Positions 9,635 through 62,818 of a stretch of DNA of 64,000 bases are shown in pieces. The position numbers were made by a program, and so were the translations under genes. The notes beneath the pieces were generated by a model. The model was not told where the DNA came from. It saw only the letters and a list, made by a program, of their open reading frames with translations, and searched no databases. The DNA is from Zanthoxylum bungeanum (lineage: Eukaryota; Streptophyta; Magnoliopsida; Sapindales; Rutaceae), in the NCBI GenBank assembly GCA_019454045.1, contig SKCR01034830.1:1-64000 (forward strand), read 5' to 3'. The number at the start of each line of letters is the position of its first letter. Position 1 is the first letter of the stretch.

Positions 9635-11386
9635 TCACTCAAACTTTTGCTGAGGAATAGCTTTTGTTAGTGGATCTGCAATGTTGTCCTCTGATGCGAC
9701 CTTCTCGATCTTCACATCGCCACGATGTATGATCTCACGAATCAGATGGAAACGTGGAAGAACATGCTTGGATCATTGATGAGACCGCGGTTCCTTAGCC
9801 TACGCTATAGCCCCGTTATTGTCACAATACAATGGAACGGGCTCAGCTGCTAACGGAACTACTCCTAATCCAATTAGGAATTTACGGATCCAAACTGCCA
9901 CTTTTGCTGCTTCAGCTGCAGTAATATACTCCGCTTCTGTTGCTGAATCGGCAACAGTCTCTTGCTTGGAAGATTTCCAGCTTACTGCTCTATTGTTCAA
10001 ATAAAATATGTACCCGGATTGCGACTTGCAGTCGTCTTTATCGGTTTGGAAACTTGCATTGGTATACCCAGTTACCTCAAGTTCTCCATCTCTATAGATT
10101 AAGAAAGCATCCTTAGTTCGTCTAAGATACTTAAGGATATTCTTAACGGCCATCCAGTGACCATCACCTGGATCGGCCTGATAGCGACTACACATGCTTA
10201 AAATAGACGAGACATCAGGTCGCATATATATCATGGCATACATGATCGATCCGACTGCCGAGGCGAACGGTATCCGACTCATGTTGTCTCTCTCATCTTG
10301 AGTTTTAGGACACATGTCCTTAGATAGAGTGACGCCATGCGACACTGGCAACAGTCCCCTCTTGGACTGATCCATGTTGAATCTTTTCAAAACTTTGTCA
10401 ATGTACGTGCTTTGGGAGAGTCGTAGCAGCTTTCTAGATCTATCCCGGTAGATCTTTATTCCCCGAATAAAGGCTGCTTCTCCCAGATCATTCATGGAGA
10501 ATTTTAATGAAAGTCAAGCTTTCACCGACATTAACATGGGAATGTCATTGCCAATAAGCAATACATCATCAACGTAAAGGACAATGAATGTCAGTGCGCT
10601 CCCACTAACCTTCTTATATACACAAGGATCATCCTCGTTTTGAATGAAATCATATTCTTTTATGATCTCATCAAAACATTGGTTCCAAGAACGCGAAGCT
10701 TGCTTCAATCTATAAATGGATCGATTTAACTTACAAACCTTGTTTACAAGTCTTGGTACGACAAAACCATCAGGGTGTTGCATATAAACATCCTCCAAAT
10801 AGTTTCCGTTAAGGAAAAAGGTTTTGACATCCATCTGCCATATCTCGTAATCGAAATATGCAGCAATAGCAAGCATTATCCGAATGGATTTAATCATGAC
10901 AACGGGTGAAAAAGTTTCGTCGTAATCGACACCATGTCGTTGACGATACCTTTTCTCTACAAGCCTAGCTTTGTACGTTTGTACATTGCCATCCATGTCA
11001 GTCTTCTTCTTGAAGACCCAATTGCAACCAATAGGTTTTACGCCTTCTGGTGCATCAACCAGCGTCCAAACTTGGTTGGTGTACATGGAATCTATTTCGG
11101 AATTCATGGCATCTTGCCATAAACCGGAGTCGATACCTTTTATTGCTTCCTCATACGTAGCCGGCTCGTCTTCCTCAACAAGATTAATATCCATATGAGT
11201 TGAGATTAGAAACCTATACCTCTCAGGTTGTTTTCTGACTCTCTCCGACCTACGGGGTTCTTGTGTATTCGAAGATTGTGGTACAGTCTCATCCCTGATG
11301 GACTTTTCATGTTCCGTTAAGGATTTTCTGCCAGGAACAGTATCACTATGATTTTCATCGAGTTCTATTTTCCTCCCACTTATCAC
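9635..11386 (-). pseudogene. Element A reverse transcriptase-RNase H (broken)
   Basis: The 5' part (11386-10514) begins with the linker to RT and holds the copia RT core: WVFKKKTDMDG, then QMDVKTFFLNG and the catalytic YVDDVLLIGND box. The second part (10495-9800) carries the end of RT (AFIRGIKIYRDRS), then RNase H with SWKSSKQETVADSATEAEY and the final LYCDNNGA. Similarity to the RNase H tail of B continues to a stop at 9635-9637 beyond an in-frame stop near 9799. The break between the two open blocks near 10500 is a stop or small indel, so no full-length enzyme is made. The product would copy element RNA into DNA in virus-like particles. Family assignment is firm. Confidence 0.85.
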
Positions 11387-12260
11387 TGCATTTAGGAATT
11401 CATTCTCAAGGAAAACCGCATGCAGAGCAACAAATATTTTGTTCTCCTGTGGGTGATAGAAGTGATATCATTTGGTTTCCCTAGGATATCCTACAAATAG
11501 GCATTTATCCAATTTGGGTTCAAGTTTGGTACCTTCCAAACGTTTGATGTATGCCCAGCAACCCCAAATCTTCAGGAATGAGAAACCCGGTTTCTTTCCT
11601 GTCCATATTTCATACGAAGTCTGTTGAGCAGACTTTAACGGAACCTTATTCAAAATAAGTATTGCACTGTTCAATGCATATCCCCAGAAGGAAATATGTA
11701 GCTCTGTGCGACTCATCATAGACCTTACCATGTCTAACAAAGTTCGGTTCTCTGTTCGCACACACCGTTTAATTGCGGTGTTCCAGGAGGAGTCCACTGT
11801 GAAAGAATACCATATTCTTTCAAGTAATCAAGAAACTCATTGCTTAAGTATTCACCACCACGGTCCGACCGTAATGTCTTAATACTTTTGCCGGTCTATT
11901 TTTCTACTTTGTGTCGAAACTCCTTGAATTTCTCAAAGGTTTCCGACTTGTGTCTCATAAGATACACATAACCATAACGCGATGCATCATCCGTAAAGGT
12001 TACGAAGTATTCATATCCACCTCTAGCCTGGCTAGACATGGGCCCACATATGTCACTATGAACGAGGGCTAACAGTTCAGTGACGCTTACACCTTTACCG
12101 CTAAAAGGTGATTTAGGCATCTTGCTTAATAAACAAGATTCACAGACGTCATATGAATTTGGATCAAATCCGTCCATGTACCCACTCTTCGAAAGTGTGA
12201 ATATATACGTGTCTTGTTTATGTCCCTATACGACAATGCCATATATAAGTTTCATATTGG
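11387..12260 (-). pseudogene. Element A integrase (broken)
   Basis: Open block 12177-11896 has the end of the zinc region (DVCESCLLSKMPKSPFSGK), then LVHSDICGPM and DDASRYGYVYLM with the first catalytic Asp in the HSDICGP motif. The middle, with the second Asp (LRSDRGGEY-type), lies near 11850 between open blocks. Block 11797-11468 holds the end of the core and the KPGFSFLKIWGCWAYIKRL segment typical of copia. Stops near 11896 and 11797 break the frame. Integrase inserts the cDNA in the genome; this copy cannot. Confidence 0.8.
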
Positions 12261-12764
12261 TTACTTACTTTAAGCCTTTGTTTTTACATTATATGTTTGA
12301 GATTGATTTATATTCAAAATATAAAGAACATTATTTGCATCAGCAGTGCAAATTTCCATATCATTTTATACATAAAACACCCAGTGTTTCTATATACAAA
12401 AGTATACCCACATTGGGCTAACATAATACAAAAATATATTCCTAGTCAAACTAGGTACAAAATAAAAATTTATAAGTTCAAGTACATGCCCCGATGGCTG
12501 TTCCAAAACATAAGTGCCCATAGCCAAAACGGCAACTCGAGTCCCATTTCCAACACGGAGGTCAATCTCTCATGAGGCCAGTCTCCTGCTAATCCGCAGA
12601 TCCTGCACATCAGTACATATGTGAGTACCACAAACAGAATCAAAAATCCAATTTTTAAAACTAGAAGTAGACACGTTTATTTCTATAATAAACATACCTG
12701 AAGCCGGTGCCTTGCCCGCTTTAATTTCCTTCATGTGTGCCTTATACTCACGGCAATCACCCTT
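12261..12764 (-). pseudogene. Element A protease / integrase zinc-finger remnant
   Basis: No long open frame on the minus strand, but the DNA matches element B at 18690-19200, where the protease (WIFDSVCGTHICTD) and the HHCC integrase start are readable. In A the equivalent protease segment lies near 12560-12690. The aspartic protease would cut Gag-Pol. Plus-strand open frames here (12080-12421, 12297-12575) are antisense shadows. Confidence 0.6.
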
Positions 12765-13547
12765 CTAGTCACCCTGTTTCCCGCACTGCAAGCATATATC
12801 TTGGGATTTGTCCTTGGGTTTCCCAGAACCCTTTGACGATTTGGCCATGCCCTTCTTCTTATGCTTCTTCTTCTTAACACCTCCAGTCACATTGGGCCAA
12901 GCCCTTGGAATCTGAGATGTTGAAGCATAGTGCGCCTCATGCTTATTGCCCTTAAGGAGCTCATTTTCTACCTCACGCAGAGTGGACATCAACTCTCCAA
13001 GAGTTTGGTCTTGGTTCAACATGTTGTAGTTCATGATGAACCCACTCCAAGTGTCGGGGAGAGACTGTAGTATCAAATCCACTGAAGTCTCAGCCTCGAA
13101 GACTATGCCCATCTGTCCGAGCTGCTCAATGTCAGCAATCATCTGTGAGACATGATGCTCAACAGACGTACCCTCTGATATTCGAGCGTGGAAGAGCTTC
13201 TTCTGTAACTCGTATATCTGCGATCTAAGGTTAGATCGGTGGAGATCATGCAACTTCGCCATCATCTCATAGAGATCCAACCCCTTGTTTTGACGATGGA
13301 ATTACGGAGTCATAGCGGCAAGCATTACCGATTGATCAGTCGCATTATCATCGCTATGAGTCTTCCAAAGCTCTAGCTCAAGCAACTGATCAGGTCGGGG
13401 CTTAGGCCCAAAATGTCGCTCTATAGTGTAGAGTAACTTCTCAGATCCTAGAATAATTCTCAGATTCATATCCCAATCCTGAAAGTTTGTGCCATTAAAG
13501 ACGTTGTCGCCCATGACAATTTCCTTAATGTTCAACTTTCCTGTCAT
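12765..13547 (-). pseudogene. Element A gag (broken)
   Basis: Starts MTGKLNIKEIVMGDNVFNG at 13547, a copia Gag N terminus (FNGTNFQDWDMNLR). A stop at about 13300 separates it from 13280-12765, which reads MDLYEMMAKLHDLHRSNL through the lysine-rich KKKKHKKK stretch to a zinc knuckle that begins CLQCGKQGD and is cut by a stop where B has GHWKRDC. Gag forms the particle and its CCHC knuckle binds RNA. B's gag has the same start and order, supporting the chosen ATG. Confidence 0.85.
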
Positions 13548-21007: not shown

Positions 21008-21660
21008 TGTAGGACACAGGACCTGGGCGGCGCCGTTCCTAGGCTCGCGGCCTAGTTGGGAAGGATTACATAACATGGAGTCGCCACCCGGTGTGAACCG
21101 GGACAAAGATTAAGGCCGCACTCACCCTCGCAAGGGAAGACCTCAAACCGTTGGGTTCGGAATGGTCCCTTACTTATGTCATTTGTAATGAAAAGATTCA
21201 TGTAATAATTTAACCTAAGCTTAAGTAACACTTATTTCCAATAGTACCATGCTTCTAAATTCTCATATGCAAAATAAAACTTATGTGTACGTTTCTACAA
21301 TATCTCATATTTAAAGTTGCATGCTTAACATATATCAAGATAGCAGCGAACATACAACTTAATTTACATATCACATTCAGGAAAACACAAGCACACATAT
21401 AGACCATACAAGCACACATATGGGCACTTTTCCAAGCGGTACGTGGAATTGTAGCCCAAGTACAGACCGCACTACCCTCCATTCGGAATCGGCTACGGAA
21501 TTTACGTCTGGGTTTCCATCCGATATAACGCGAGAAATATACTCAAGTGTTATCATGACATAAGCATACAAATTGTAATATATTGACACATTTGCATAAG
21601 AAAGATCAACCAATAGGCAATTATGCATGAATATAATAAGACAGACTCAGTTCAGTGTGT

Positions 21661-21985
21661 GCACGTTCGTGTAACGTTCGTAAACGCGTTCGAACGGAAA
21701 TGAAACAGAATGCTCACGTTCGAGTAGCGTTCGTAAACGCGTTCGAACGGAAATGAAACAGAATGCTCACGTTCGTATGGCGTTTGTTAACGCGTTCGAA
21801 CGGAAATGAAACAGAATACTCACGTTCGAGTAGCGTTCGTAAACGCGTTCGAACGGAAATGAAACAGAATACTCACATTCGTATGGCGTTTGTTAACGCG
21901 TTCGAACGGAAGTGAGACCTGATGCATGATAAGGCAAAATGTATGTGCGTTCGAGTTGCGTTCGTGAACGCGTTCGAACGGACAC
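21661..21985. repeat. Tandem array of palindromic ~57-bp units in T1 3' LTR
   Basis: Six units of about 57-59 bp, each with AACGCGTTCGAACGGAAATG. The core CGTTCGAACG is a perfect palindrome, preceded by GCGTTCGTAA. The last two units have a different tail (GACCTGATGCATGA). The same array is at 29051-29395 in the other LTR. Confidence 0.85.
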
Positions 21986-22024
21986 GGACCTGATGCATGA
22001 AATAGGATGCAATACATAAACAGA

Positions 22025-22500
22025 AAATAAAAGGGCGCGGCGAAGCACTGCCGTAAGGTGACCTTTTGGGGCTCTTGATCTCTCAAAGAGAGGACCTTTA
22101 GACCAACATACTAAGCGCCATGCGCGTCACATCACACATACAAGAATAGAACCAATCATATCAACCAAGTATGCCCGATTGAACACATCTTACATCCAAT
22201 CTGAACACACATCACCCGGCGCGGCAAAGAATCGTGGTAAAGGGCTTTTAGCCCCTCCCCATAGGGGATCTCACAACACACTTACTAAGCCCATGCGCTC
22301 GATTGACTTATACATACGAAAATAAAGATAACAATATCAAACTATGTATGCCCGATTGAACGTATCTCGCTCCAACCGAACATACATCAAACGGCGCGGC
22401 GAAGTAGTGTCACGAAGGTGGCTTTTCGGCTCTTTGTCTCCTAAATGGAGGACCTTTGGACTAACTCACTAAGCCCATGCGCTTGGTTGAATCATGCATA
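22025..22500. repeat. Three ~180-bp GGCGCGGC modules in T1 3' LTR
   Basis: Each begins GGCGCGGC(G/A)AAG, carries GTAAAGG, then GAGGACCTTT or a variant, then a CTAAGCCCATGCGC stretch and GAAC(A/G)TATCT. Related modules occur about four times in T2 (62819-63420) and again in the T1 5' LTR (29425-29900). Confidence 0.75.
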
Positions 22501-25968: not shown

Positions 25969-27239
25969 CTATGAAGCTGAGTGGTTGAGAGTTTGGAGGA
26001 CAAGGGTTTCGGGTAGGCCAGAGTTGATCATGTAGTTGGGCAGGGGATTTCTGTGTGCGTTGGGTTGTTCTTTTTCTGGGTCGGGTATTGTATGGGCATC
26101 GATGAGGTTTTGGATTTCATGTCTGAGGCGGGCGCAGTTGTCGGTGTCATGGCCTTTTTCTTGGTGGAAGTGACAGTATAAGTTTAAGTTCATGTGAGGT
26201 GGCACAGGATTTGGAATGGGCCTAGGTTCCAAAGGTTTTAAGAGTCCATGCGCCTTCAGCTTTTCGAATACCTTTGAAAGAGGCTTACCAAGGTTAGAAA
26301 ATCGTCTGTTCTTAATGGCAGTGACTTCAGCAGTAGCAGGCATAGTCCCTGAATGTCCCCCCAATATTCCTTCTGTTCTGTCCATAAAACTTTCTGTTCT
26401 CGGCTTCCTCCTCCTCAATATCCATAACTGTCTCCCTCTCAGCTGTCGAAAATCAGTAATCACGAAGTCATTCTCCTCAGTTTGCCATAAATAGAGGGCT
26501 TGGTGCCCTGATGATCATTTTGATCTGGTCCTTTTCTGAGGGCCGGGTCTGCATTTCAGAAGCTGGCTCCTCCAGCGGTCCACATATTCCTTGAAATTTT
26601 CTCCTCCTTCTTCTGCTTGATATTTTCTAAGTCGGAGTGACAAGTCAATCTCCAGGTCCGTGACATATTGTTTTAAGAAAGCATCAGCTAGCTCCTCCAA
26701 TCTTCCTTAACCTGCTTGTCTAGGTTATGGTACCATACTACGCGTGCCCCCTCGAGTGACATCCCGAACATCTTTTGTACTTGGCGCTGAGACAGGCCAA
26801 CTGAACTCATAACAGACACATACTGACGGAGATGCACCCTCGGATCTCCATTCCCATTGAACTTAGCCAAATCCGGCATCTTAAACTGCGCTGGCAACTG
26901 CTCCTCAAACTTCATTGTCTCATAATCTAGCAAATCTTCATTCTTACCCCTCATCTTGCGGGTAACGGATTCAACCTAATCCCTGAGTTTCTGTATCTCG
27001 GCCTGAGACCCAATCACTCTGTCTATTGCACACTCTGCCATATCATCATCAAAAGCGGGGATATCATCCCCCAACCCATTCGGAGGCTCCTCGTGCCTTA
27101 CATTCTCAGAACTTCCCCCAGCACGGGGCACAGCCATATTTGTCATGGCAGTAGTCAAGGCTTGCAACTGTTCAGTGACCTTGGCGAGACCGTTTTCCAA
27201 CTGATCCATACGGGATACCTCAATATCTGATTCACTCAT
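25969..27239 (-). pseudogene. T1 gag (lightly broken)
   Basis: ATG at 27239 (MSESDIEVSRMDQLENGLAK), also the start in T2. A TAG at 26976-26978 interrupts the frame, where T2 has CAG. The capsid-like region (26954-26515) reads FKMPDLAKFNGNGDPRVHLR, ARVVWYHNL and FKEYVDRWRSQL, typical of gypsy Gag. One base is missing near 26697 and a TGA or TAG lies just after 26515. The C-terminal block (26463-25969) has a zinc-knuckle-like YCHFHQEKGHDTDNC (Cys-His with GH..x3..C spacing), the form seen in Tat Gags. With only two stops and one frameshift the gag is young. No pol follows. Confidence 0.85.
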
Positions 27240-28403: not shown

Positions 28404-29050
28404 GACTGTAGGACACAGGACCTGGGCGACGCCGTTCCTAGGCTCGCGGCCTAGTTGGGAAGGATTACATAACATGGAGTCGCCACCCGGTGTGAACCGG
28501 GACAAAGATTTAAGGCCGCACTCACCCCTCGCAAGGGAAGACCTCAAACCGTTGGGTTCGGAATGGTCCCTTACTTATGTCATTTGTAATGAAAAGATTC
28601 ATGTAATAATTTAACTAAGCTTAAGTAACACTTATTTCCAATAGTACCATGCTTCTAAATTCTCATATGCAAAATAAAACTTATGTGTACGTTTCTACAT
28701 ATATCTCATATTTAAAGTTGCATGCTTAACATATATCAAGATAGCAGCGAACATACAACTTAATTTACATATCACATTCAGGAAAACACAAGCACACATA
28801 TAGACCATACAAGCACACATATGGGCACTTTTCCAAGCGGTACGTGGAATTATAGCCCAAGTACAGACCGCACTACCGTCCATTCGGAATCGGCTACGGA
28901 ATTTACGTCTGGGTTTCCATCCGATATACCGCGAGAAATAATACTCAAGTGTTATCATGACATAAGCATACAAATTGTAATATATTGACACATTTGCATA
29001 AGAAAGATCAACCAATAGGCAATTATGCATGAATATAATAAGACAGACTC

Positions 29051-29395
29051 AGTTCAGTGTGTGCACATTCGTGTAGCGTTCGTAAACGCGTTCGAACGGA
29101 AATGAAACAGAATGCTCACGTTCGAGTAGCGTTCGTAAACGCGTTCGAACGGAAATGAAACAGAATGCTCACGTTCGTATGGCGTTGTTTAACGCGTTTG
29201 AACGGAAATGAAACAGAATACACGTTCGAGTAGCGTTCGTAAACGCGTTTGAACGGAAATGAAACAGAATACTCACGTTCGTATGGCGTTTGTTAACGCG
29301 TTCGAACGGAAGTGAGACCTGATGCATGATAAGGCAAAATGTATGTGCGTTCGAGTTGCGTTCGTGAACGCGTTTGAACGGACACGGACCTGATG
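29051..29395. repeat. Tandem array of ~57-bp palindromic units in T1 5' LTR
   Basis: Same six-unit array as 21661-21985; a few CGAAC cores are changed to TGAAC (for example near 29198 and 29250). Confidence 0.85.
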
Positions 29396-30513
29396 CATGA
29401 AATAGGATGCAATACATAAACAGAAAATAAAAGGGCGCGGCGAAGCACTGCCGTAAAGGTGACCTTTTGGGCTCTTGATCTCTCAAAGAGAGGACCTTTA
29501 GACCAACATACTAAGCCCATGCGCGTCACATCACACATACAAGAATAGAACCAATCATATCAACCAAGTATGCCCGATTGAACACATCTTACATCCAATC
29601 TGAACACACATCAACCGGCGCGGCAAAGAATCGTGGTAAAGGGCTTTTAGCCCCTCCCCATAGGGGATCTCACAACACACTTACTAAGCCCATGCGCTCG
29701 ATTGACTTATACATACGAAAATAAAGATAACAATATCAACTAAGTAGTGCCCGATTGAACGTATCTCGCGTCCAACCGAACATACATCAACCGGCGCGGC
29801 GCGAGTAGTAGTGTCACGAAGGTGGCCTTTTCGGCTCTTTGTCTCATAAATGGAGGACCTTTGGACTAACTCACTAAGCCCATGCGCTTGGTTGAATCAT
29901 GCATAACTAACGACATATTGAATTCAAGTAAGCAAACTAAATAAACAAGAGCAACACAACAAAAGAAAGATGGTGCCGTTTACCCAAGCGGTACGTGGAG
30001 TTGTGGCCCGAGTACAGATCATATTACCGTCCATTCGGAATCGGCTATGAAATTTATGTCCGGGTTTCCATCCGATATACCGCGAGAGTTGACACATCTC
30101 TCATTCATCCAATACCCACAACATATTACATCTCATAGTTCATGCATATTTATCTACTCAAAGACCACAACATGCATTCATAGACGACTCTCATGCGAAT
30201 AGAATTCAATAAAAAATGAATATAAACTAATGAAAAGATACCCTCAGGTCTAACCTTTTAAATCACCTCTCGGATGTACGGTACACGATCGTCGGAAGGG
30301 TGGATCTTCGCAACTCTCCCTCTCCCGTTCACTGGTTCACTGTTCTCGTTCGTTGTCTTTACTGTTTTGCTTGCGGCTCGAACTCCGTTCTACTCCTATT
30401 TCCTCTTTATCTTTTGCTTACTGTTTTTGGGTGTCTTCTTCCTGTAGTTTTTATGTGTGTTGTGTATGAGTTAGAGACTAGCTAGCTAAGGTTGAGAAGG
30501 TTGGTGAAGGGTT

Positions 30514-36822: not shown

Positions 36823-38823
36823 TGTTGGAGTTTGCTAACGTCCAAAGGATCAATAAACAAGCATGAACATGTGTGAATACAATCGAGAAAGTCACGGAAT
36901 ACTCACATCGATCGGTTGAGCGATGATTTGATGAACAAAATTTTCTTTTCTGCTCACCAAGGCTCACGGCAGTGAGCAGTCCACTGCTTCTCCATTTTCA
37001 GTTTTGGATCAACTTCGTCAAGCTCCAAGCTTCGTGATTTGATTCCCGGCTTATGGGTGGACTTCCTTATCACCTTTGCATGTCTCTCGGAGAGCTAGCT
37101 CTCTTGATTTTTTCCACAAAAACCAAGCACTTGCTTCCCCTAGCTCACGACATTTGTAAACTAGAAACCAGAAAATTGCCCCAAGGGCGTGAGTGAGAAA
37201 GATGAAGAAGAAAGAGAGTGTCATGTGTAAAGTGTATCTAATACACTTAAAAGAAAGTCAAATACCAAAATTCAAATAAAATGTAAATGTCTTTCATTCT
37301 TACACATTTGAGTGTCCAACACTCTTTCACCAACCAACTACTTTCATCACCAAAAAATGAGATAAAGTTGACTAGTCGAAGTGACGCTTGATTTGACGCT
37401 TTATGTGACTTGTATACCGCACTCGAATTCGAAATGTGAATACGCTCGCAAACACTCTCGGGCTCGGGTTCGCTAATTCAAATTAACGAATTTTCCGTTG
37501 CGACATAATTAAATGATTATGCCTAGCGAAATCACTATTCACATCGCTAACGAATTAATTCTAAATTAATTCGTTCGCCCGAATTAAAATCTAATTTCAA
37601 TTCCATGTCGAAATCCAATTTCGTTTAATATATCAAATATATTAATTTATCGATTAATTCGAAATTAATCGTTCTCTCTCTTTAAATGATATTCTATCCC
37701 AGATAAAATATCTCCGCAGTTAATCCCAGATTAATTTTCTCTCTCATCATTAATTAATCCCAGATTAATAAAAGTGTGAGTCATACGTCATCGGTGAATC
37801 TTTGGGAAGCGACCCATGAGATCCCCGGATATGTTGGCAGTAAATTCGGTCGTCGGACTATCCGAACACGTAAGTACCAAGTACTACGTTTTACCGATTT
37901 ACAAGACAAGGTTGGCTTCTAGCAAAGCGCCATGCCTACCCAATTCTCCGGAAATATCCTTACAGGAATAATGATCTATATCAGGCGTAGTATACATAGT
38001 ATTGTGTATGTCGATCCAGTATTGGATGATCAAATGCAAGGCCTGGGGCTGGTACAGTGTCTGCCTCGTATGAAGCATATATCGGATGACGAGCAACTAG
38101 TCTCTTTAATATCGGATAATCATGACCAAGTCATATTATCCCGACGGTTGCAACCTTTTTAGAGAACCAGTTCTGTATCCCTACGCGATCATCATCTCCA
38201 TATGACTGGACTGACACTTCGTCTTGACATCACTCCCAACACACTACGATTCTCAATATACCCAGCATTGGCGTACACAGAACCTGTTAAAGCCCTGGAC
38301 GACCGCAACCAAATTATATTGATTGTCGTAAGTATTAGCGGTGCAAGTCTCAGATTAAGACCAAATACACCTACCCTGATTTCGGACTTCCATAGACACA
38401 TAGTCATACTACCAATGGAATTCCGAGGGGTTCTATCCAGAGCAAAGCTGTTTCCCGTACCATCGGTAAACCACAACCTACTATTACACTTGCATGAGTA
38501 TCCTATACCCAAATATATGAGAACTAAGCCGTTGTGCCCTCACAACGCGCACAAGTGTAATACTAGTCTTTTACGTATTCATCGATGTCCAATCTCGATA
38601 ATACTCTGACTAGGGATATTTAATGATTTATCTTTCGTGGATTGATTCTGTCTCATATCATTCTCAATCCAGGAACAAATCATAGGGACCTCCTATCATT
38701 TATATATCTAGGTGATCTAATCACAAATGATAAGAGTGCAATCTCCTTTGTCACATAGTTAATTTGTACAACAACACCATGATCTGTACAAATAGTGACG
38801 CTATGGGTCATAATTGTCCAACA
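36823..38823 (-). repeat. 5' LTR of element C
   Basis: 2,001 bp. TGTTGGAGTTTGCTAACG start, GTCCAACA end, followed by TGGAT and the resumed RT of element B. Confidence 0.85.
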
Positions 38824-39974
38824 TGGATTATGTTTACATGCAACAGCCTGACAATTTTGTCGTGCCAAGACTTGCAAACAAGGTTTGTAAGTTAAATCGA
38901 TCCATTTATGGATTGAAGCAAGCATCGTGGTCTTGGAACCAACGTTTTGATGAAATCATAAAAGAATATGATTTCATTCAAAATGAGGATGATCCTTATG
39001 TATATAAGAAGGTTAGTGGGAGCGCACTGACATTCATTGTCCTTTACGTTGATGATGTATTGCTTATTGGCAATGACATTCCCATGTTAACGTCGGTGAA
39101 AGCTTGGCTTTCATTAAAATTCTCAATGAAAGATCTGGGAGAAGCAGCCTTTATTCTAGGAATAAAGATCTACCGGGATAGATCTAGAAAGCTGCTTGGA
39201 CTCTCCCAGAGTACATATGTTGACAAAATGTTGAAAAGATTCAACATGGATCAGTCCAAGAGGGGATTGTTTCCTGTGTCACATGGCGTCACTCTATCTA
39301 AGGACATGTGTCCTAAAACTCAAGATGAGAGAGACAACATGAGTCGGATATCGTTCGCCTCGGCAGTCGGATCGATTGTGTATGCCATGATATATACGTG
39401 ACCTGATGTCTCGTATGTTTTGAGCATGTGTAGTCGCTATCAGGCCGATCCAGGTGATAGTCACTGGATGGCGGTTAAGAATATCCTAAAGTATCTTAGA
39501 TGAACTAAGGATGCTTTCTTAATCTATGGAGATGAAGAACTTGAGGAAACTGGGTAAACCGATGTAAGTTTCCAAACCGATAAAGACGACTGCAGGTCGC
39601 AATCCGGGTACATATTTTGTTTGAATAACGGAGTAGTAAGCTGGAAATCTTCCAAGCAAGAGACTGTTGCCGATTCAACAACAGAACCAGAGTATATTAC
39701 TGCAGCTGAAGCAACAAAAGAGGCTGTTTGGATCCGAAAATTCCTAATTGGATTAGGAGTAGTTCTGTTAGCAGCTGAGCCCGTTCCATTGTATTGTGAC
39801 AATAACGGGGCTTTAGCGCAGGCTAAGGAACCACGGTGTTATCAATGATCCAAGCATGTTCTTCGACGTTTCCATCTGATTCGTGAGATCATACATCATG
39901 GTGATGTGAAGATCGAGAAGGTCGCATCAGAGGACAACATTGCAGATTCGCTGACGAAAGTTATTCCTCAGTAA
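38824..39974 (+). pseudogene. Element B reverse transcriptase C-part and RNase H (broken)
   Basis: The RT frame resumes DYVYMQQPDNFVVPRL and is open to 39401, with the catalytic box YVDDVLLIGND and LGIKIYRDRSRKLL. Stops follow at about 39400 and 39501 (TGA where A reads CGA) and near 39556. RNase H (39621-39848) has SWKSSKQETVADSTTEPEY and LYCDNNGALA. The tail has EDNIADSLTK and ends with TAA at 39972-39974. The gene is collinear with A. Confidence 0.85.
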
Positions 39975-53690: not shown

Positions 53691-54215
53691 ACCAGAGAGG
53701 AAGTCTTTGGGGTTTATATTTGTTTTGAATTTTTGTGGGTGTTTAGAGAGATGGGAGAGAACGTGTGGAGAGCCGAGAGGAGTGAGAGGGGATTGGTAAG
53801 AAGAGCCAATGAAGAATTAGGGTTGGCATAGGTCTCTTTTTATAATGGTGCATGCTAGGGTTTCCTTGTGTGTGCATGGCTTGAAAAGGGAATAAATCAA
53901 GCAAAATATGGGTGTGTTTAATTTAGGGAAAGAATATTTGTATTTTTGGTGGGGAATTTCTTTAATTTGGTAGGTAATTTATTTAAATTAGGAATGGAAT
54001 TTATTTGGATTTGATTTAATTTGTGACATGTGTTTTAAATATTTTGGATTGGGCTTGGGTGTGTGGGCCTTGTGTGATGTGGGCGTGTGGCTTGGATAAA
54101 TGGGTTTTGGATGGGTTGCAAGGGTTTTGGGCCGAGGCTAAAAGTTAAAAAAGAGATTAATCGAGTGATCCCGAGGCTAATTAGCGAGTTAAATTTGTTG
54201 ATGTATTTATTTTTA
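53691..54215 (-). other. Probable gypsy LTR scrap, no gene
   Basis: AT-rich with long T/G stretches. It resembles the distal part of the Tat LTR in style: minus-strand TATA at 53836-53844 (TATAAAAAGAG) preceded by a first-exon-like GA-rich block. It ends abruptly where Athila gag begins. The assignment is an inference from layout. Confidence 0.35.
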
Positions 54216-55812
54216 ATGAGAACCACAATCGATGCTGCTGCTGGAGGAGCTTTGATGGCAAAAGGAGAAGATCAAGCCTGGGACCTAATCGAAGAAATGG
54301 CCAACAACAATTCCTTGTGGCCAACAGAAATGAGCATGATCCAAAGAATTGCAGGAATTTACGAAAGTGGAGCCAATACAGCAGTCAACACCAAGCTAGA
54401 TCAGATATGTAAATTCATGGAGACTCTTACCACTGGATCCACAAGTTCACCATATGGAGGAGCACCAGAGTCAAACCAACTTGAAGAAACGGTGAATTAT
54501 GTCAACAATTTCAACAGACAAGGGAACAATCCATATTCCAACACCTACAACCCAGGGTGGAGGAATCATCCTAATTTATCATGGAGCAACAATTCAGGCC
54601 AACAGCGGAACTATCCACCACCTGGATTCCAGCAACAGAACAAAGGCCAGGAGCAGGCAAATGAACCAGGAATAGCAGAAGTGCTGGCTCAGTTAAAAAA
54701 GTACGATACTATATTTCAAAGCCATTCAGCCTCTATCAAAGCACTGGAGAATCAAATGGGACAACTGTCAAATGCTCAGAGTTACATACCGCCAGGTACC
54801 CTTCCTAGCAACACTGAGCCAAATCCAAGAAACATGGGGAAGGAACAATGTCATGCCATCATGTTAAAAAGCGGTACTGAAATCAACAAAGATGTTGGAG
54901 CCAAAACAACTGCTGAGGAAGTTCCAAAAGAAACAAAGCAACAGATGGAGGAAAAAGAAGCAAAGGAAAAAGAACAGATCACTCCACCTCCACCTTTTCC
55001 TCAACGTCTTCAGAAGAACAAATTGGACAAGAAGTTTTCTCGGTTCCTGGAGATCTTCAAAAAGCTGCATATCGACATTCCATTTGCAGAAGCGTTGGAA
55101 CAAATGCCCACCTATGCCAAATTCATGAAAGATATTCTTTCACGAAAACGGAGATTGGGAGATTGCGAGACAGTAGCATTAACAGAAGAATGCAGTGCCA
55201 TCATTCAGAGGAAACTTCCCCCGAAGTTGAAAGATCCTGACAGTTTCATTGTTCCTTGCGTCATAGGAGAACATAACTTTGGTAAGGCTCTGTGTGATTT
55301 AGGTGCTAGTGTTAACTTGATGCCTTTTTTCTATTTTCAGGAAATTACAGATTGGAGAAACAATGCCAACTTCAGTCTCACTACAACTTGCTGATAGAAC
55401 GCTCGTATTTCCGAGAGGTGTAGTTGATGATGTGCTGGTCAAGGTTGACAAATTCATTTTCCCAGCAGATTTTATTGTCCTTGATATGGAGGAAGACGCA
55501 GACGTACCAATCATCCTTGGGAGACCATTCTTGGCTACAGGTCGAACCATTATTGATGTACAAAAAGGAGAACTAACCATGAGGGTACAGGACCAAGAAG
55601 TAACATTCAATGTTTTCAAGGCCATGAATTTCCCAGATGATGAAAAGAATGAGGAATGTTTCAAACTCGATGTGATACACAGTATCATTCAGAACTCTGA
55701 TGAAAGACAAAGTTCTACTGACAAACTTAAAACATGTCAATTGCCTGTGGAGCCTAAAGATAAAGCTTCTTTTGCACTGAAAGAGCCCATTCTTGTACTA
55801 CAAGCAACATAA
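54216..55812 (+). pseudogene. Athila-like gag C-half and aspartic protease (one frameshift)
   Basis: MRTTIDAAAGGALMAKGE and LIEEMANNNSLWP are the Athila Gag signature, followed by a Pro/Asn/Gln-rich region (YPPPGFQQQ) and a coiled segment. The protease has the catalytic motif ALCDLGASVNLMP (about 55285-55323). Directly after it one extra T in a T run (55325-55330) shifts the frame; the protease continues from 55363 with SVSLQLADRTLVFPRG and DVPIILGRPFLATGR, ending at TAA 55810. The open frame left of 54216 shows no Gag similarity and is treated as foreign. Confidence 0.8.
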
Positions 55813-56172
55813 GAGAAAAAGTTCCACCAGTTCAACGAATTGGAGGAATTTCACAATCAGCCTTTTGAAGATGCCAAATTGTACAAAGAAAAGGGCAAGA
55901 AAAGACATGATGAGAAGTTAGTGCGCATACAACTGGAACCAGGGCAGAAGGTACTGTTAAACAAATCAAGGGTGAAATTCTTCCCATGGAAGCCAAAATC
56001 ACGGTGGTCAGGTCCATTTGTGATCACCAAAGTTCTACCAAATAGAGCCGTTGAGATACATGATCCTGACTCCAGCAAAACTTTCAAGGTTAAAAACAAG
56101 CGTGTCAAGCACTACTGGGGAGAATCATTTGAGCGACAAAAAGAAAGTGTTACACTTTCAGATCCAGCTTAA
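55813..56172 (+). pseudogene. Athila-like integrase C-terminal tail
   Basis: In the same frame as the protease and separated from it only by the TAA at 55810-55812. It reads NELEEFHNQPFEDAKLYKEK, KVLLNKSRVKFFPWKPKSRW and then SGPFVITKVLPNRAVEIHDP, the familiar chromodomain-free gypsy integrase end (GPF.V..V.P.GAVE). The catalytic core and all of RT and RNase H are missing before it. Stop at 56170-56172. Confidence 0.8.
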
Positions 56173-56295: not shown

Positions 56296-56311
56296 GATTA
56301 GTCATTTCAAT

Positions 56312-56413
56312 ATGGAAGAAGCTCTCGCAAATCTTCGCAAGCAATTTCCTTCTCTCCCTCAAAAATCTCTGATGAAAGTTTACAAAGCTTGCTTGGAACG
56401 AATGAGACTATGA
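56312..56413 (+). CDS. Small upstream ORF (33 codons), overlaps next ORF by ATGA
   Basis: First ATG after the splice-site-like AG. The peptide begins MEEALANLRKQFPSL and ends at TGA 56411-56413. The next ORF's ATG is at 56410, so stop and start overlap as ATGA, a layout suited to termination-reinitiation. It could also be an N-terminal part separated by an old frameshift. No motif recognised. Confidence 0.4.
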   Translation: MEEALANLRKQFPSLPQKSLMKVYKACLERMRL

Positions 56414-56859
56414 CGATCCATGGTGTGCCCAATGACATTCGTTGGGTAATTGAAGCACGAGTCCGATTGGCAGGTGAGTCTTCTGACTCTTTTATTTCAC
56501 ATCTGCCTGGTTTCGGAAGAAGCACCTATGCAAAGAAACGTAGAGCTAAGCAAATGGGTGTTTGTTTCAAATGTGCACGATTTAATTGCAACACTCGTTG
56601 TTGTTCTTTAGGAATGGTGTCTGATAATCGCGAAGACAAAATTAAATTCATTAGGGATGGCTTGAGTAAGGAGTCTGTAGATGAAATATCTTCAACTCTT
56701 GAGACGCAGCCCAGTGGATATGTTCATATAGTCATTCGCAAATTACATACACAATTCAAAAAGGAAAGACAACTATTAAGTCTCGGGAATCTGACTCAAA
56801 AAGACCCTGTTTGCCAATTTATAAGAAAATTGGATGGGAAGCTTGTCCCTGACGCATAG
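56410..56859 (+). CDS. Carlavirus-like cysteine-rich nucleic-acid-binding protein (captured?)
   Basis: 149 codons, intact. ATG at 56410 is chosen because the longer frame starts only at a TTG (56389). Residues 36-46 read GRSTYAKKRRA, a Gly-Ser/Arg-rich basic patch, followed by a cysteine cluster C52-x2-C55-x4-C60-x3-C64-C65 and then GMVSDN and FIRDG (80-84). Order, spacing and the basic patch before the cysteines match the small NABP/cysteine-rich proteins near the 3' end of carlavirus RNAs, which bind nucleic acid and in some viruses suppress RNA silencing. I recognise the pattern; I have not searched. The zinc-ligand spacing is shorter than usual. The rest (87-149, KESVDEISSTL onward) matches nothing I know. 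It sits between integrase tail and LOG ORF. Confidence 0.5.
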   Translation: MTIHGVPNDIRWVIEARVRLAGESSDSFISHLPGFGRSTYAKKRRAKQMGVCFKCARFNCNTRCCSLGMVSDNREDKIKFIRDGLSKESVDEISSTLETQPSGYVHIVIRKLHTQFKKERQLLSLGNLTQKDPVCQFIRKLDGKLVPDA

Positions 56860-56939: not shown

Positions 56940-57050
56940 TTCTTTTATTTTCGTAGACAGGATCCAGACCTTTTTTACTAACACGATATTATTTCGCTAC
57001 TAATCGTCTTCTGGAAGATACTTGTGCTATTATTACTCACCCTTTTTCAG
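56940..57050 (+). promoter_or_regulatory. Two intron-end-like sites before the LOG ORF
   Basis: GTTTTCTTTTATTTTCGTAG|ACAGG ends at about 56957 and CACCCTTTTTCAG|GTAC at about 57048. Either AG could be a 3' splice site feeding the LOG frame, which has no ATG of its own. The second is also a possible donor (CAG|GTAC). Confidence 0.3.
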
Positions 57051-57100: not shown

Positions 57101-57625
57101 GAAGAAATACATATAAAAATTGAAGCCACTTCAAGAAGACGAGTTGAAAACATCTGTGTGTTTTGCGGTAGTAGTGTTGGTACTAAACCACAATACGTAG
57201 AAGCAGCACATGAATTGGGTCGAGTCTTAGCTGCAAGGAATATGCACTTAATATACGGCGGAGGCAATCTTGGACTAATGGGGATCGTTTCGAAGGCCGT
57301 ACAGGAAGGAGGCAGTCATGTTTTGGGAATCATCCCAAAACCCTTGGCAGAGGCAAATCTTATTGGATCATCAAACGGAGAGGAACTGATCGTGCCAGGT
57401 ATGTCTGAACGACTGGTAGAAATGATTAACCGTGCTGATGCTTTTATCGCTTTGCCAGGTGGCTTGGGCACATTGGAGGAAATTTTTATAGTGCTATCTT
57501 GGGCGAACCTGAACATACATCAGAAACCGCTTGGACTGCTCAACGTTGATGGATTTTATGATTTTCTTTGTGTGTTTCTTGATGATGCTCGGAGAAATGG
57601 GTTCGTGTCAAAACCTATGAAATAA
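57101..57625 (+). CDS. LOG: LOG-type cytokinin riboside 5'-monophosphate phosphoribohydrolase (retro-captured)
   Basis: Open from after TGA 57098-57100 to TAA 57623-57625. LOG enzymes cut cytokinin ribotides to active cytokinin plus ribose phosphate in the cytosol. Seen: VENICVFCGSSVG at the start, YGGGNLGLMG (dinucleotide-fold phosphate loop), HVLGIIPK, then MSERLVEM with the conserved Arg (codon 57410-57412) and PGGLGTLEE with the catalytic Glu (57479-57481), then GLLNVDGFYDFL. All hallmark residues are kept. The family's plant genes have several introns; none interrupts this frame, so an RNA copy was captured. No ATG lies in frame; ATA at 57113-57115 may be a lost start, or an exon is spliced on. 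The C-terminal 40-50 residues are out of frame. Confidence 0.85.
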   Translation, partial: EEIHIKIEATSRRRVENICVFCGSSVGTKPQYVEAAHELGRVLAARNMHLIYGGGNLGLMGIVSKAVQEGGSHVLGIIPKPLAEANLIGSSNGEELIVPGMSERLVEMINRADAFIALPGGLGTLEEIFIVLSWANLNIHQKPLGLLNVDGFYDFLCVFLDDARRNGFVSKPMK

Positions 57626-57779
57626 CTCTCTTCACTGCCAGAACTGCTCCGGATCTAATAGATCACTCATAGCCTATGAACCACAAGTTGACCCTATCCT
57701 TTCAAAGATAAATTGGTCCGAGGACGATCGTGGTAGAGGAGTCGGATTAATCTGGATCTTAACCTTTAATTTCCTGTAG
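57613..57779 (+). pseudogene. Broken C-terminal tail of the LOG copy
   Basis: Two further frames continue the LOG similarity: TARTAPDLIDH (57613 frame, ends TAG 57670-57672), then AYEPQVDPILSKINW (57672 frame, to TAG 57777-57779). These match the end of the family (..APTA.ELI..L, then ..DP..SKLNW), so two small indels separate the tail from the main frame. Confidence 0.6.
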
Positions 57780-59076
57780 ATTTTCAGCTAACCAGGTACA
57801 ACCTTCTTAACTCTCCTTTTACTGTTTAAGACATTAGGGACAATGTCTCATTTAGGTTTGGGGGAGGAAATAGTTGATCAGTACCTTGTTTTTTTAGTTT
57901 GTGTGTTATTTTTATTTTTAGTCCAAAATTTTTCGAAAAATACAAAAAAAAATTGGAAAATTTTCAAAAATTACAAAAATATTTTGTGTTTTTTGTTTTT
58001 ATTCTGACTAAAAAGGTGAAATTGGTGAGAGATAGCTGAGTAAGGAGTTTCCACTCCTGATACATATCTCAAACATATCTCAAACCTATTTAATTGTGAA
58101 TTCTCCTTAAAACTGACTAAAAAGGAATCTTCAATGTTTAGTTAGCAGATATTATCAACATATATAGTAACATACGGACATGAGCTAATTGAAAAGTTTG
58201 TAATATTCAGTGCTCTAGTTTAATTGGAGGAAGCATCTCAAAAAGCAATGGAGTAAAAAAAAAAAAAAAAAAAAAAACGTCTGAGATCCGAGTTATTAAG
58301 TCTGTAAGGGTGTTTTAACACCTAGTGCCCTAAAGCCAACTGGTTTGGGAGTCACTGGCCCAAAGCTCGTTACATGGATCAAAGATGCTGCAAAAATATA
58401 TATATCTGAAGTCTGGGTAATTAAGTCTGTAGGGGTGTCTTAACACCTGGTGCCCTAAAGCCAACTGGTTTGGGAGCCACCGACCCAACACTCGCTACAT
58501 AGATGGAAGATATTGTATATAAATAAAAAAAAAACAAAAAATCAAAGAAAAAATCAGAAAAATGAGAAAAATTATTCCATTGCTACAAAAGGTGTTAAAT
58601 CTGATAGAACTTTAGGACAAAAATATTACTCTCTTATCAACTGTACTTATGACTGTTGTGGGAAAAAATGAGATGTTTAATATTTTGTTGGCTGTGTATA
58701 TGAAGAATTGTAAAAATAATCGGAGAATTTACTTATTCTGTAATTTAGAATGAAACAAAACAACTATTGACTTGAGTAGAAGTTTCACCTGATTAGTCAC
58801 TAACATCTTTATTCTCTTTTCGCTTGTCTTTTTGCTTTTGTGTGCATTAGTTTTACTACATTTTTACTTTTGTAAAATATTTGTGGGTATCATTGCTGTA
58901 AACCCTCACGAGACTACAACTCGTCCACTAGGGACACCTAGGGGTTTAAAGGCTTGTTGTATATGCTAAATGCAACCGTGATCCCTACGAAAGTGGCTTA
59001 GTTTAATTTTAATTGTTTCTTGTATTTTATTTTGTTGTTTTGCTCAAGGACTAGCAAATTGTTAGGTTTGGGGGTG
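57780..59076 (+). other. Athila-like 3' internal region, no gene
   Basis: Contains the Athila word TTTAGGTTTGGGGGAGGAAAT (57852-57872), a 23-base A run (58255-58277) and a tandem duplication of about 115-120 bp (58278-58395, 58401-58512; shared words AGTCTGTA(A/G)GGGTGT, CCCTAAAGCCAACTGGTTTGGGAG). The polypurine tract GGTTTGGGGGTG lies just before the LTR at 59065-59076. Confidence 0.65.
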
Positions 59077-61287
59077 TGATGAGCGGAAAATATATCAATA
59101 TTTACCGCCCCTTTTACTTAATATTTTGTTTAGTTTCTCGGGTTTGATGAACGTTTTGATGTGTTTTAGTTTATTTTGCAGATAAAATAATATTGGGACT
59201 TAATGAAATTATTTAGGACGAAATATGGGTCAAATAAGGGGCAATTATTGGACTTGATATTTTAATTTTGGAGATTGGAAACTTGAAAGAGCGTTTTGGC
59301 GAAGTGCAGTTTTGGAAATTCCAGTTTTGCGCATCTATCGTATTTCGGGCATAACGTTTTACTCAGATATCGGATTGAGCTGATTCAAGCTCCAAATTAA
59401 AGAGGACTCAAAGATCTACAACATTTAAAGACAAAATAATTTCGAATTCGGAAGATTCATGCCCGAAATCGATGAACCATCCAAAAGTGTGTAGTGTGTA
59501 ATTATTAAAGTCACTTTCAATCATTTTCAAAGCAAAAAATAAATTAATAAATAAATAATAAAAATTATCAAATCATCACCAAACATGATAAGAGCAATTA
59601 GTGGAGCAATTAGTGGAGTAATTAATAATTGATTTGGTGGATGATTTGATGGAGGCAAAATTTTGCCTATATTTACCAAGCCATTTCATTTGTAAAATTC
59701 ATACTTTCTTCTAATGAATTCCTTAAGAATACTAAGAAAATTGTATCTTGTTTGTTTATTTATAGCTTTCAGTAATTAATTTCCGCTTTCGCACTTTCTC
59801 TTTCTTTACTTTTCAGTTTTTACTTTTCAGCAATTTACTTTTATGCACAGTACTTTTCTTTCTTTAATTTTCAATTTTTACTTTTCAGTAATGAGGAGGT
59901 AACTCCCCTTTGCTGGGGTAAAAGGTAAAACTTTTATGACTAATATTTAGATTAATCTCCCTTAATTATAATATATAAACTAGTTAAAACCTGACTTAAC
60001 GAGGATACCGCCATATTGTCGGTTGGTAATTATTTAAATTGGTTTTAACCTGACTAATTGGATACCACCTGATTGGTCGGTTGGTAATTAATTATTAATT
60101 TGACTTAATCTGGATACCGCCTATATGGCTGGTTGGTATTATCATGCAAAGTAATATATTATATTAAGGGAGATATCTAAAATAGAAGTAATAAAAGCGG
60201 ATCTTTTTACCTCAGCATTTTCTTTATTGTACTTCTACTTTATTTACTTTTCAGCAATTTACTTTTCAGCAATTACTTTTCATCAATTTACTTTTCAGCA
60301 ATTTACTTTTCAGCAATTTACTTTTCAGCATTTACTTTTCAGCAATTTACTTTTCAGCAATTTACTTTTCAGCAATTTACTTTTCAGCAATTTACTTTTC
60401 AGCATTACTTTTCAGCATTTAATTTTCAGTATTTAATTTCAGCATTTACTTTTCAGCATTTACTTTTCAGCAATTTACTTTTCAGTATTTAATTTTTAGT
60501 ATTTTACTTTATGTCTTTTATTTTATTTAAGTTTTTACTACCTGTAAATATGTGTCGTAACTAAGCCAGTTATCTGGGGTTGTGATGAAATCCAATATCA
60601 CCGGTTTATAAGGGGTTTAATTATAGTTTGGGTAATATAAAGGTTTATTTATTGAGTCTTAATCCTAATGCTTTTTTATTAACTGGCCATTAATAAAATT
60701 GAACGGGTAAATCTAAAATGAACTAGACATAAGGATTTTAGGTTTAAGACCTTAGACTTAATAGCCCACGATCTTCCTTGAGGATAGATAACCCTTTAAT
60801 AGATTTCCTTACAGGATATGAATATACTTGTCGGGCGGGGGTAGCCATAATTGGAACTTAAACTTAATGAATCCAGATAATTTGGTTGACATAGACATAT
60901 GGTTCAATTGGGTTAAACTGGGTATTTGTGTCTGACCATCGACAGAGGCTTACACAAGATTTAGTGTTCCAGGTTAATAAATCAATATATTACCCCACTT
61001 TAAGATAACCACTTCATCTTTAAAATGATATTGGAAGAAATCACAACCCTAGATAGTTTTTAATATTAAATTTTCTTAAAATCTACTTTCGAACAATGTT
61101 ATTTACTTGTTTTTAAATTTAGAATCGTCACCATTTCAAATCAATCAAACAACCTGTTAGATACTAGTAATCATTTGACCTCATAAAATTAATAGATTAG
61201 ATATTAAGTCCTCGTGGGATCGATATTTTTATACTACTTGAACGATACGTGGGCTTGCGTTATACGTGTGTGTTTACGCCGGTCACA
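59077..61287 (+). repeat. 3' LTR of the Athila-like element (right end approximate)
   Basis: Starts TGATGAGCGGAAAATATATC after TTTGGGGGTG and ends near GCCGGTCACA, giving about 2.2 kb. The distal words CTCGTGGGATCGATATTTTTATACTACTTGAACGATACGTGGGC are characteristic of Athila LTR ends. Tat gag fragment T2 follows at once. Confidence 0.65.
60237..60500 (+). repeat. ~16-bp minisatellite ATTTACTTTTCAGCAA in the LTR
   Basis: About 16 copies of CAGCAATTTACTTTT with some shortened to CAGCATTTACTTTT. Scattered relatives start at 59811. The open frame 60227-60436 is a product of the repeat. Confidence 0.9.
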
Positions 61288-61867
61288 TACTGATTCAGAA
61301 AGGCTTCTGCTAATGCCCTCCAATCATCATTGACTTTTCTCTCCAGGCCGTGATACCATACCACGGGCGCCCCCTCTAGTGACATCCTGAACATCTTCTA
61401 AACCTGATGCTTCGACAGACCCACTGAACTTATCACAGAAACATACTATCGCAGATGGACCATCGGATCCCCGTCCCGTTGAACTTGGCTATGTCCGGCA
61501 TCTTGAACTGCGAAGGCAGCTACTCTTCGAAAGTCATCGCATCGTAGTCTAGCAAATCTGCATGTTTGCCCTTCAGCTTGCGGGTAACTGACTATACCTG
61601 ATCCCTGAGTTTCTACAATTCTTCCTAAGACCCGGCTACCTTTCCCATGGTATATTCTGCCATGTCATCATCGAAAGCGGGGATCTCATCACTCACCCTA
61701 TTCGGAGGCTCTTCATGCCTGAAATTCTCATTGCTTTCTATTCCCCCTGTGCGGGACACTGCTAGACTGGCCACGGCGGTGGCTAAAGCTTGGAACTGCT
61801 CAGTAATCTTAGTGATGTTGGTCTCTAATTGATCCATGCGGGAAACCTCAGTATCTGACTCACTCAT
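61288..61867 (-). pseudogene. T2 gag 5' fragment (broken)
   Basis: ATG at 61867: MSESDTEVSRMDQLETNITK, then RHEEPPNRVSDEIPAFDDD, matching T1 closely. Stops follow after KVAGS (61625) and further on. Similarity continues as LLDYDAMTFEE, LPSQFKMPDIAKFNG and LEGAPVVWYHGLE to the break at 61288. Confidence 0.8.
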
Positions 61868-62818
61868 GTTTGCTAACTATTTTTTAATGAGCCTTCATTT
61901 TTCTCTAACCCAATGGATATCTATTATGGCTGTTAAAACTATGAGTTAACATGATGTGTGTATGCGTGCGATGCGTGAGATATATAAGATGTATGTGGTT
62001 ATCAAAATAGCATATATCCTTCCGACCTTATTCCTCACATACTCGTGGTAAGTCCATTTCTATCCTAGGTATAGCTCATTTTATGCACCAATGTGGGGTA
62101 CACAAAATCATTCTCTCTTATGCTACAAGGGTGAACCTTGGCTACCTCAGTCCCTTTCCATCGGTAAAAGATAAAGACCGCCCATTTACAATATGGACTA
62201 AGCCTATTATGAGATCATGCCATTGTCTAGAAACGACGAATTGGGCTTTCAGCAACCGCGGTCATGGGGATGAACTTGGAGGTATCCAAAGTAAACAAAT
62301 ATGTCATAACAAGGAGTATCATTTCTTGATGAAAGCCATTGCGGATATCGGACTCATGCTTCTAGCATACTTGGATCGTATTTGGATTTTCTAAGCCCAT
62401 CAAGGTTTTCATACAAGTTGGTTCATTATCATTTTAAAGCATTCAATCACATTATTGCGAGGTGCAAACTTGTCCCAGTTGCAAAAGGCCCAACAGGTTT
62501 ACACTTTGCAATAACATGGCTAAACAACCTCAAATGATAGGGGGCCCAAACACAAAGTGGCCCATCGGCATTTTAGAAGCTTTTAGCCCAATTGTCATAA
62601 GACACAAACTCATCCCCGTTTAAATGGCCCAACAAGTTCACATCTCATGATAAGAAGTCCAAATGAATCCAAATGATGATGGTCCCAAACACAAGCATAA
62701 ATGGTGGCTTCTATAGGTCATGCAACTATGGTTCATATGAAGGTTTTTCAAGGGTATGGATAAAGGATCCTGTCGGTGAAGGGTTGCCCACAACTAGGTC
62801 TCCCCACTCAAGGGTTCG
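61868..62818 (-). other. T2 leader, no gene
   Basis: Holds the CCCCGTTTAAATGGCCCA and AGGCCCAACAGG units of the T1 leader (about 62440-62700) and a CCTGTCGGTGAAGGGTTGCCCAC word. The 103-codon plus-strand frame at 62083-62394 has no recognisable motif and no match in T1. Confidence 0.6.

Follow-up and report, generated by a model that had tools for sequence, protein, structure and literature searches.

Gene order at the LOG locus

The window, i.e., the whole 64,000-nt stretch of Zanthoxylum bungeanum contig SKCR01034830.1 analysed here, carries on its plus strand a gag-like frame, a protease-like frame, an integrase-like tail, a second accessory frame, a LOG frame, a purine-rich tract and a putative 3′ LTR, in that order (Table 1). 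That the LOG sits inside a damaged copy of Ty3/gypsy type is supported, as a previous sequence-only reading had proposed. The same reading placed an integrase tail upstream of the LOG. Such a tail exists, but the frame that adjoins the LOG is a second accessory gene, described below as NABP-like, and not an integrase.

Table 1. Features of the LOG-bearing copy, in positions of the window
Feature	Position	Strand	Basis
partial gag-like frame that extends into the protease start	54078..55394	+	uninterrupted frame, 438 codons
protease-like frame	55321..55812	+	open frame; weak sub-cut-off matches to PF08284 RVP_2, E 0.0094 and 0.0055
integrase-like C-terminal tail	55813..56172	+	open frame; without Pfam match
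NABP-like accessory frame (betaflexivirid nucleic-acid-binding type)	56302..56859	+	PF01623, PF05515; 89% identity to P0121
AG 3′ of a pyrimidine-rich tract, candidate splice acceptor	56955..56956	+	read from sequence
another candidate acceptor AG, some 70 bases 5′ of the LOG start region	57049..57050	+	read from sequence
LOG frame, start codon lost	57101..57625	+	PF03641 E 2.5e-33; PDB 2a33 E 4e-55; 34/34 invariant residues
broken LOG C-terminal region in three frames, with the LDLNL tail at 57752-57766	57626..57771	+	three-frame translation against relatives
purine-rich tract ahead of the 3′ LTR	59064..59076	+	read from sequence
putative 3′ LTR, TG...CA, right end inferred	59077..61287	+	sequence; without 5′ partner in the window

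The gag-like frame is presumably of retroelement origin and the integrase-like tail presumably what its name says, both by their motifs; neither these two nor the protease-like frame has a Pfam match above cut-off. Between the protease-like frame and the integrase-like tail, the RT, the RNase H and most of the integrase are missing. The lineage label Athila-like is likewise our assumption, based on motifs of gag and LTR; it is not settled by Pfam, and the RT, RNase H and integrase domains by which the lineage would be placed are absent from the window copy. A second (5′) LTR was looked for within the window and none was found; the ends of the LTR are therefore placed by the purine tract and the TG...CA termini instead of by a pair. 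The sequence TGATGAGCGGAAAAT is found once in the window, at 59077-59091. Scanning the window for Rfam families and tRNAs gave no matches.

As the window contains no 5′ LTR and the core of pol is missing, the LOG might be a retrogene that happens to lie beside an unrelated LTR fragment. However, the integrase-like tail, the NABP-like frame, the LOG, the purine tract and the LTR keep one strand and one order, the adjacency of the two accessory genes recurs in other genera, and a LOG in Ty3/gypsy consensuses is already in print in the accessible text of PMC9289625. A chance neighbourhood was set low and is hardly credible.

Within the putative 3′ LTR, a 15-base tandem array of ATTTACTTTTCAGCA (about 18.6 copies) spans 60242-60510, and every unit includes TTTTCAG, which is similar to a splice acceptor. 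A second purine-rich tract with GTTTGGGGGAGGAAATAG lies soon after the LOG (57853-57871) and resembles the tract that precedes the LTR, and a 107-base repeat is found twice in the non-coding stretch between LOG and LTR, at 58280-58386 and 58405-58511, with 84% identity between its copies. Just past the LTR end there is an open frame on the opposite strand (61293-61880, minus), without a Pfam match above cut-off, which we take to be gag-like; positions 61351-61500 match 26728-26878 at 79%.

The LOG frame

The LOG is encoded by an uninterrupted frame of 174 codons that matches, in addition to PF03641, the Pfam family PF18306 (E 5.8e-18). Its top PDB match is At2g37210 (2a33), which we take to be Arabidopsis LOG3. 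Residues 3-170 align to it without a gap, so this stretch is without an intron, and the intronless state claimed by the sequence-only reading is borne out. So is the presence of the LOG motifs in one frame: CVFCGSS, YGGGNLGLMG, SERLVEM and PGGLGTLEE are all found, and both the PGGxGTxxE pattern and the Arg site are present. A 25-row alignment of relatives has 35 invariant columns; the frame covers 34 of them and keeps every one of these 34.

The losses read earlier from the sequence, of the start codon and of the frame at the C terminus, are also real. The compared relatives P0001-P0003 begin with M. A start codon is missing from the window frame, whose C-terminal region, by three-frame translation against relatives, is spread across three frames and interrupted by stops. 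The final residues are still legible as RINLDLNL followed by a stop. The window copy is dead, as the LOG lacks its start codon and an unbroken C terminus and the core polymerase region is absent; the NABP-like frame is broken as well as the LOG.

Two candidate splice acceptors ahead of the LOG would permit a spliced accessory mRNA. The relatives P0007 and P0008 have N-terminal extensions (AIITHPFQ and LLLTHFQ) like the translation of the window just 5′ of the LOG; conservation may thus extend to the sequence around the second of these acceptors.

The accessory gene upstream of LOG

Homology of the frame upstream of LOG to NABP starts near position 56410, the N-terminal part being degraded. The frame matches Carla_C4 (PF01623; E 2.1e-7, 31.2 bits against a cut-off of 20.9) and Viral_NABP (PF05515; E 1.5e-6, 28.8 bits against 23), and its 89% identity to the intact relative P0121 extends over 149 residues. 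Of 22 NABP relatives scanned, 21 match PF01623 and 18 match PF05515 at E <= 0.01, and neither family is matched by any of six reversed-relative controls. It should be noted that all six reversed controls show a sub-cut-off match to the cysteine-rich PF01657 (E 0.00027 to 0.038), so weak matches may arise from composition alone. Cysteine 85 is conserved in 110 of the best 120 of 147 relatives, cysteine 88 in 113, cysteine 93 in 116 and cysteine 97 in 108, and all four are present in the window. By its sequence, the frame adjoining the LOG belongs to the nucleic-acid-binding and silencing-suppressor family of carlaviruses and their kin. PF01623 is applied to a different domain (HAGH_C) in one paper that uses the NABP Pfam names; others with these names deal with hop latent virus and with glyoxalases.

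Comparison at the level of fold gave weak matches. The AlphaFold2 model of NABP is poor (pLDDT 62.4), and a Foldseek comparison of this low-confidence model with viral models returned nothing at E <= 0.001, the best match having E 0.047, with low TM-scores. By name, 22 of the first 27 rows of these weak matches are flexivirid nucleic-acid-binding, RNA-binding or silencing-suppressor proteins; two of the others are further betaflexivirid proteins and three are unnamed. A PDB search with the NABP profile found no match up to E 1, and a viral-contig search returned one locus, L024, among phage-like genes.

The p12 protein of a carlavirus acts as a transcriptional activator in the nucleus and as a silencing suppressor in the cytoplasm, according to the available text of PMC7588395. 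With such betaflexivirid proteins (chrysanthemum virus B p12 in that text) the element protein shares PF01623 and PF05515, the cysteine cluster and a basic stretch. Unlike them, it is 182 aa long with long conserved flanks, is plant-chromosomal and lies beside a LOG.

Linkage of the two genes in other plants

Among the best 120 of 147 NABP relatives are four gene models that run on from NABP into LOG: P0224 from Citrus, P0227 from Rhamnella, and P0225 and P0230 from Orobanche gracilis. These are chimeric models made by annotators, but they show the two genes side by side on chromosomes from both rosids and an asterid. Thus the pair travels together. Outside the joined models, relatives are called element-type by clade and tail. 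Among the matches listed, named hosts of element-type LOG relatives are Xanthoceras, Populus, Diplodiscus, Reevesia and Paulownia, and named hosts of NABP relatives are Xanthoceras, Populus, Acer, Citrus, Rhamnella, Parasponia and Orobanche.

Intact relatives and the active site

A search with the LOG gave 7951 proteins. The best 120 were used, and after removal of P0079, a host LOG7, 119 element-type relatives remained. Intact relatives of 217 aa exist, with identity to the window frame of up to 90%, and 83 of the 119 have 205-235 aa from the initial Met. All three patterns (GGGxxGLMG, the Arg site and PGGxGTxEE) are found in 67 of these 83, at least one being missing in the other 16; PGGxGTxEE is kept in 76/83, versus 120/120 host LOG7-type proteins, and many copies may therefore be decaying. 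Arg98 is conserved in 112 and Glu121 in 116 of the 119. The suggestion that the LOG may be intact in other members of the family is thus supported. In the 25-row alignment, identities of element-type relatives to P0001 range from 47 to 88%, and these values together with the intact frames and the kept motifs and residues fit purifying selection, with a fraction of copies decaying.

A structure model of P0001 superposes on 2a33 with an rmsd of 1.0 (E 1.7e-22) and also matches the AMP-bound LOG-fold structures 5zbk, 5zbl and 3sbx. Such AMP-bound matches would agree with an element LOG that served in house-cleaning, i.e., hydrolysed modified adenine nucleotides (N6-modified AMP, for example) and so aided reverse transcription or protected the RNA of the element, with hormone release incidental. 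The m6A demethylase of orchid Ty3/gypsy elements, reported in the available text of PMC9289625, would make RNA-base chemistry a known theme of such elements. However, the basic patch and LxLxL tail described below would be superfluous for such a role, and we regard it as distinctly unlikely.

A tree of 60 rows was made from core columns, with the tail left out. For the element-type rows, those shorter than 200 aa and P0012, P0055, P0056 and P0096 were removed, and the 86 left were thinned to 43; the host rows are 13 of the 120 LOG7-type proteins with Arabidopsis LOG3 and LOG8, other host paralogues being thinly sampled. A branch with support 98/96 has 44 element-type rows, the window included, on one side, and the 15 host rows stand apart with 92/89. 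On this well-supported branching of the sequences, element-type LOGs group in a single clade that excludes the sampled host LOGs. They are like plant LOG3 and LOG8 (PDB 2a33 and 1ydh) in fold and active-site motifs, and unlike them in forming a separate clade, in their basic and LxLxL tail and, in the window, in being intronless. The LOG search of viral contigs found 23 loci, none of them close (27-59% identity in the best segment).

That a retro-copied LOG is carried without benefit to the element would agree with the dead window copy and with the 16 full-length relatives that miss a motif pattern, but less well with the intact frames of 205-235 aa, the conserved active site and a tail held in common at 47-88% identity to P0001. 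Linkage to NABP in other genera also speaks against a mere passenger, which appears unlikely. A single passenger pseudogene was set low: that no other family member carries a LOG is contradicted by the joined gene models and by the available text of PMC9289625.

A C-terminal tail specific to element-type LOGs

The tail was counted in rows that have the C-terminal Trp region, which left out 25 of the 119 element-type and one of the 120 host proteins. LxLxL occurs in the last nine residues of 71 of 94 element-type tails, and a basic patch in the last 22 residues of 88 of 94; among 119 host LOG7-type tails, each is found in none. The strict LxLxL is missing in 23 of the 94. Shuffled tails had a mean of 2.8 and a maximum of 8 LxLxL matches in 94, against 71 observed, and an origin of the motif by chance was set low. 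The LOG3 and LOG8 tails as printed are without an LxLxL or basic tail. The relatives are redundant, many being from poplar; after thinning, LxLxL is present in 32 of 42 element-type rows, with at least four changes needed on the tree. The basal rows P0028, P0051 and P0099 end right behind the basic patch; LxLxL may thus be an addition that followed capture, or these rows may have lost it. In the window, LDLNL lies beyond the stops and frame shifts. Neither this kind of tail nor the virus-type gene beside the LOG was noticed in the sequence-only reading.

The EAR repression motif is defined by LxLxL and DLNxxP in the available text of PMC6283911 and PMC9956375. By this definition the element-type tail has an EAR-like repression motif, and it may bind TOPLESS. 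A LOG whose enzyme function is irrelevant, acting as a dimeric carrier of the repression tail, could account for a tail that is exclusive to element-type LOGs and disordered in the model (pLDDT <50), but would hardly explain why Arg98 (112/119) and Glu121 (116/119) are kept, or why the basal rows have the enzyme without LxLxL; it is very unlikely.

The tail also serves as a simple marker that separates element-type LOGs from host LOG7, the two being mixed up in annotations. The poplar proteins P0039, P0045 and P0048, labelled LOGL10, bear the element-type tail.

Relation to described elements

Steinbauerova et al. (2011) reportedly found a LOG (YgdH)-type domain in plant Ty3/gypsy elements. 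The accessible text of PMC9289625 describes a YgdH/LOG domain in the Ty3/gypsy consensus sequences of Citrus sinensis and C. clementina; when the filter is relaxed, P. trichocarpa joins them. Agreement with a 2011 report is stated there. The view of the sequence-only reading that there was no described case does not hold, and because these Citrus and poplar elements are in print the capture of a LOG is not new in itself. A LOG in plant Ty3/gypsy elements is already known, and the window element is real and of that kind.

The window element is like the Citrus and Populus YgdH elements in having a LOG-type domain in a plant Ty3/gypsy element, but the NABP partner, the C-terminal tail and the wider set of plants are not described for these in the available text of PMC9289625. 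In the same text, orchid Ty3/gypsy elements carry an AlkB-type m6A demethylase that is active in vitro. The orchid elements resemble the one described here as Ty3/gypsy elements with an accessory gene of a kind shared with flexiviruses, and differ in the gene itself and in that activity has been shown in vitro. The available texts of PMC7264820, PMC6317226, PMC11963269, PMC11728184, PMC6338049 and PMC12786077 contain neither the NABP partner nor the EAR-like tail. In the main texts of the openly licensed papers searched, the identity of NABP, its linkage to LOG and the LxLxL tail were not found. These features turn a LOG in a retroelement from a curiosity into a testable hypothesis of host manipulation.

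Possible role of the two genes

Relatives of both NABP and LOG occur in several flowering plants, which points to manipulation of the host cell by the element but falls short of proof. We would put at about one half the probability that the locus is a decayed copy of an old eudicot Ty3/gypsy lineage in which a NABP of the betaflexivirid zinc-finger type and a LOG, located after pol and before the 3′ LTR, form a module for host manipulation. This reading builds on the well-supported gene order, on the homology of both genes (for LOG with its fold, for NABP with the Pfam matches in 21/22 and 18/22 relatives), on the kept active-site residues Arg98 and Glu121, on the joined models from three other genera, on the clade with support 98/96, on a tail absent from host LOG7 and on the dual role of p12. 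Against it are the 16 of 83 relatives that miss a motif, which may be from decaying copies, the 23 of 94 tails without strict LxLxL, and the weak fold comparison of NABP.

In such a module, the LOG would have been captured as an RNA copy and retained because its protein helps the element. NABP might dampen RNA silencing, act on transcription, or both, as reported for carlavirus p12. The LOG would release active cytokinin, partly in nuclei, and so favour division and meristematic fate, and its tail would place the enzyme in the nucleus on TOPLESS-type corepressors. New insertions in dividing or meristematic cells could then reach the germ line and be inherited. Enzyme activity of the LOG, silencing suppression by NABP and binding of the tail to TOPLESS are properties that we infer.

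A more specific version is tentative and, in our estimate, doubtful. In it the lineage has kept, since before the rosid-asterid split or by spread between the two groups, a silencing suppressor or transcription factor together with a nuclear, TOPLESS-recruiting cytokinin enzyme, which jointly loosen silencing and drive division toward the germ line, and the first of these genes would be shared with RNA viruses by transfer. If host manipulation is true, a transposon lineage furthers its own spread by activating a plant hormone, much like gall-forming microbes, and has a likely silencing suppressor in common with one family of plant RNA viruses. With intact members of the family, the claims on hormone and suppressor are testable by routine leaf assays.

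Other elements in the window

Two direct repeats with 97-99% identity (21300-22116 and 28701-29516), 7.4 kb apart and each with a 53-base tandem array, resemble the paired LTRs of a young element. Remains of copia type are found at 9800-13301 on the minus strand and at 38814-39398 on the plus strand, with RVT_2 matches at 10517-11467 (E 5.1e-57) and 38814-39398 (E 1.2e-33) and a copia gag at 12768-13301.
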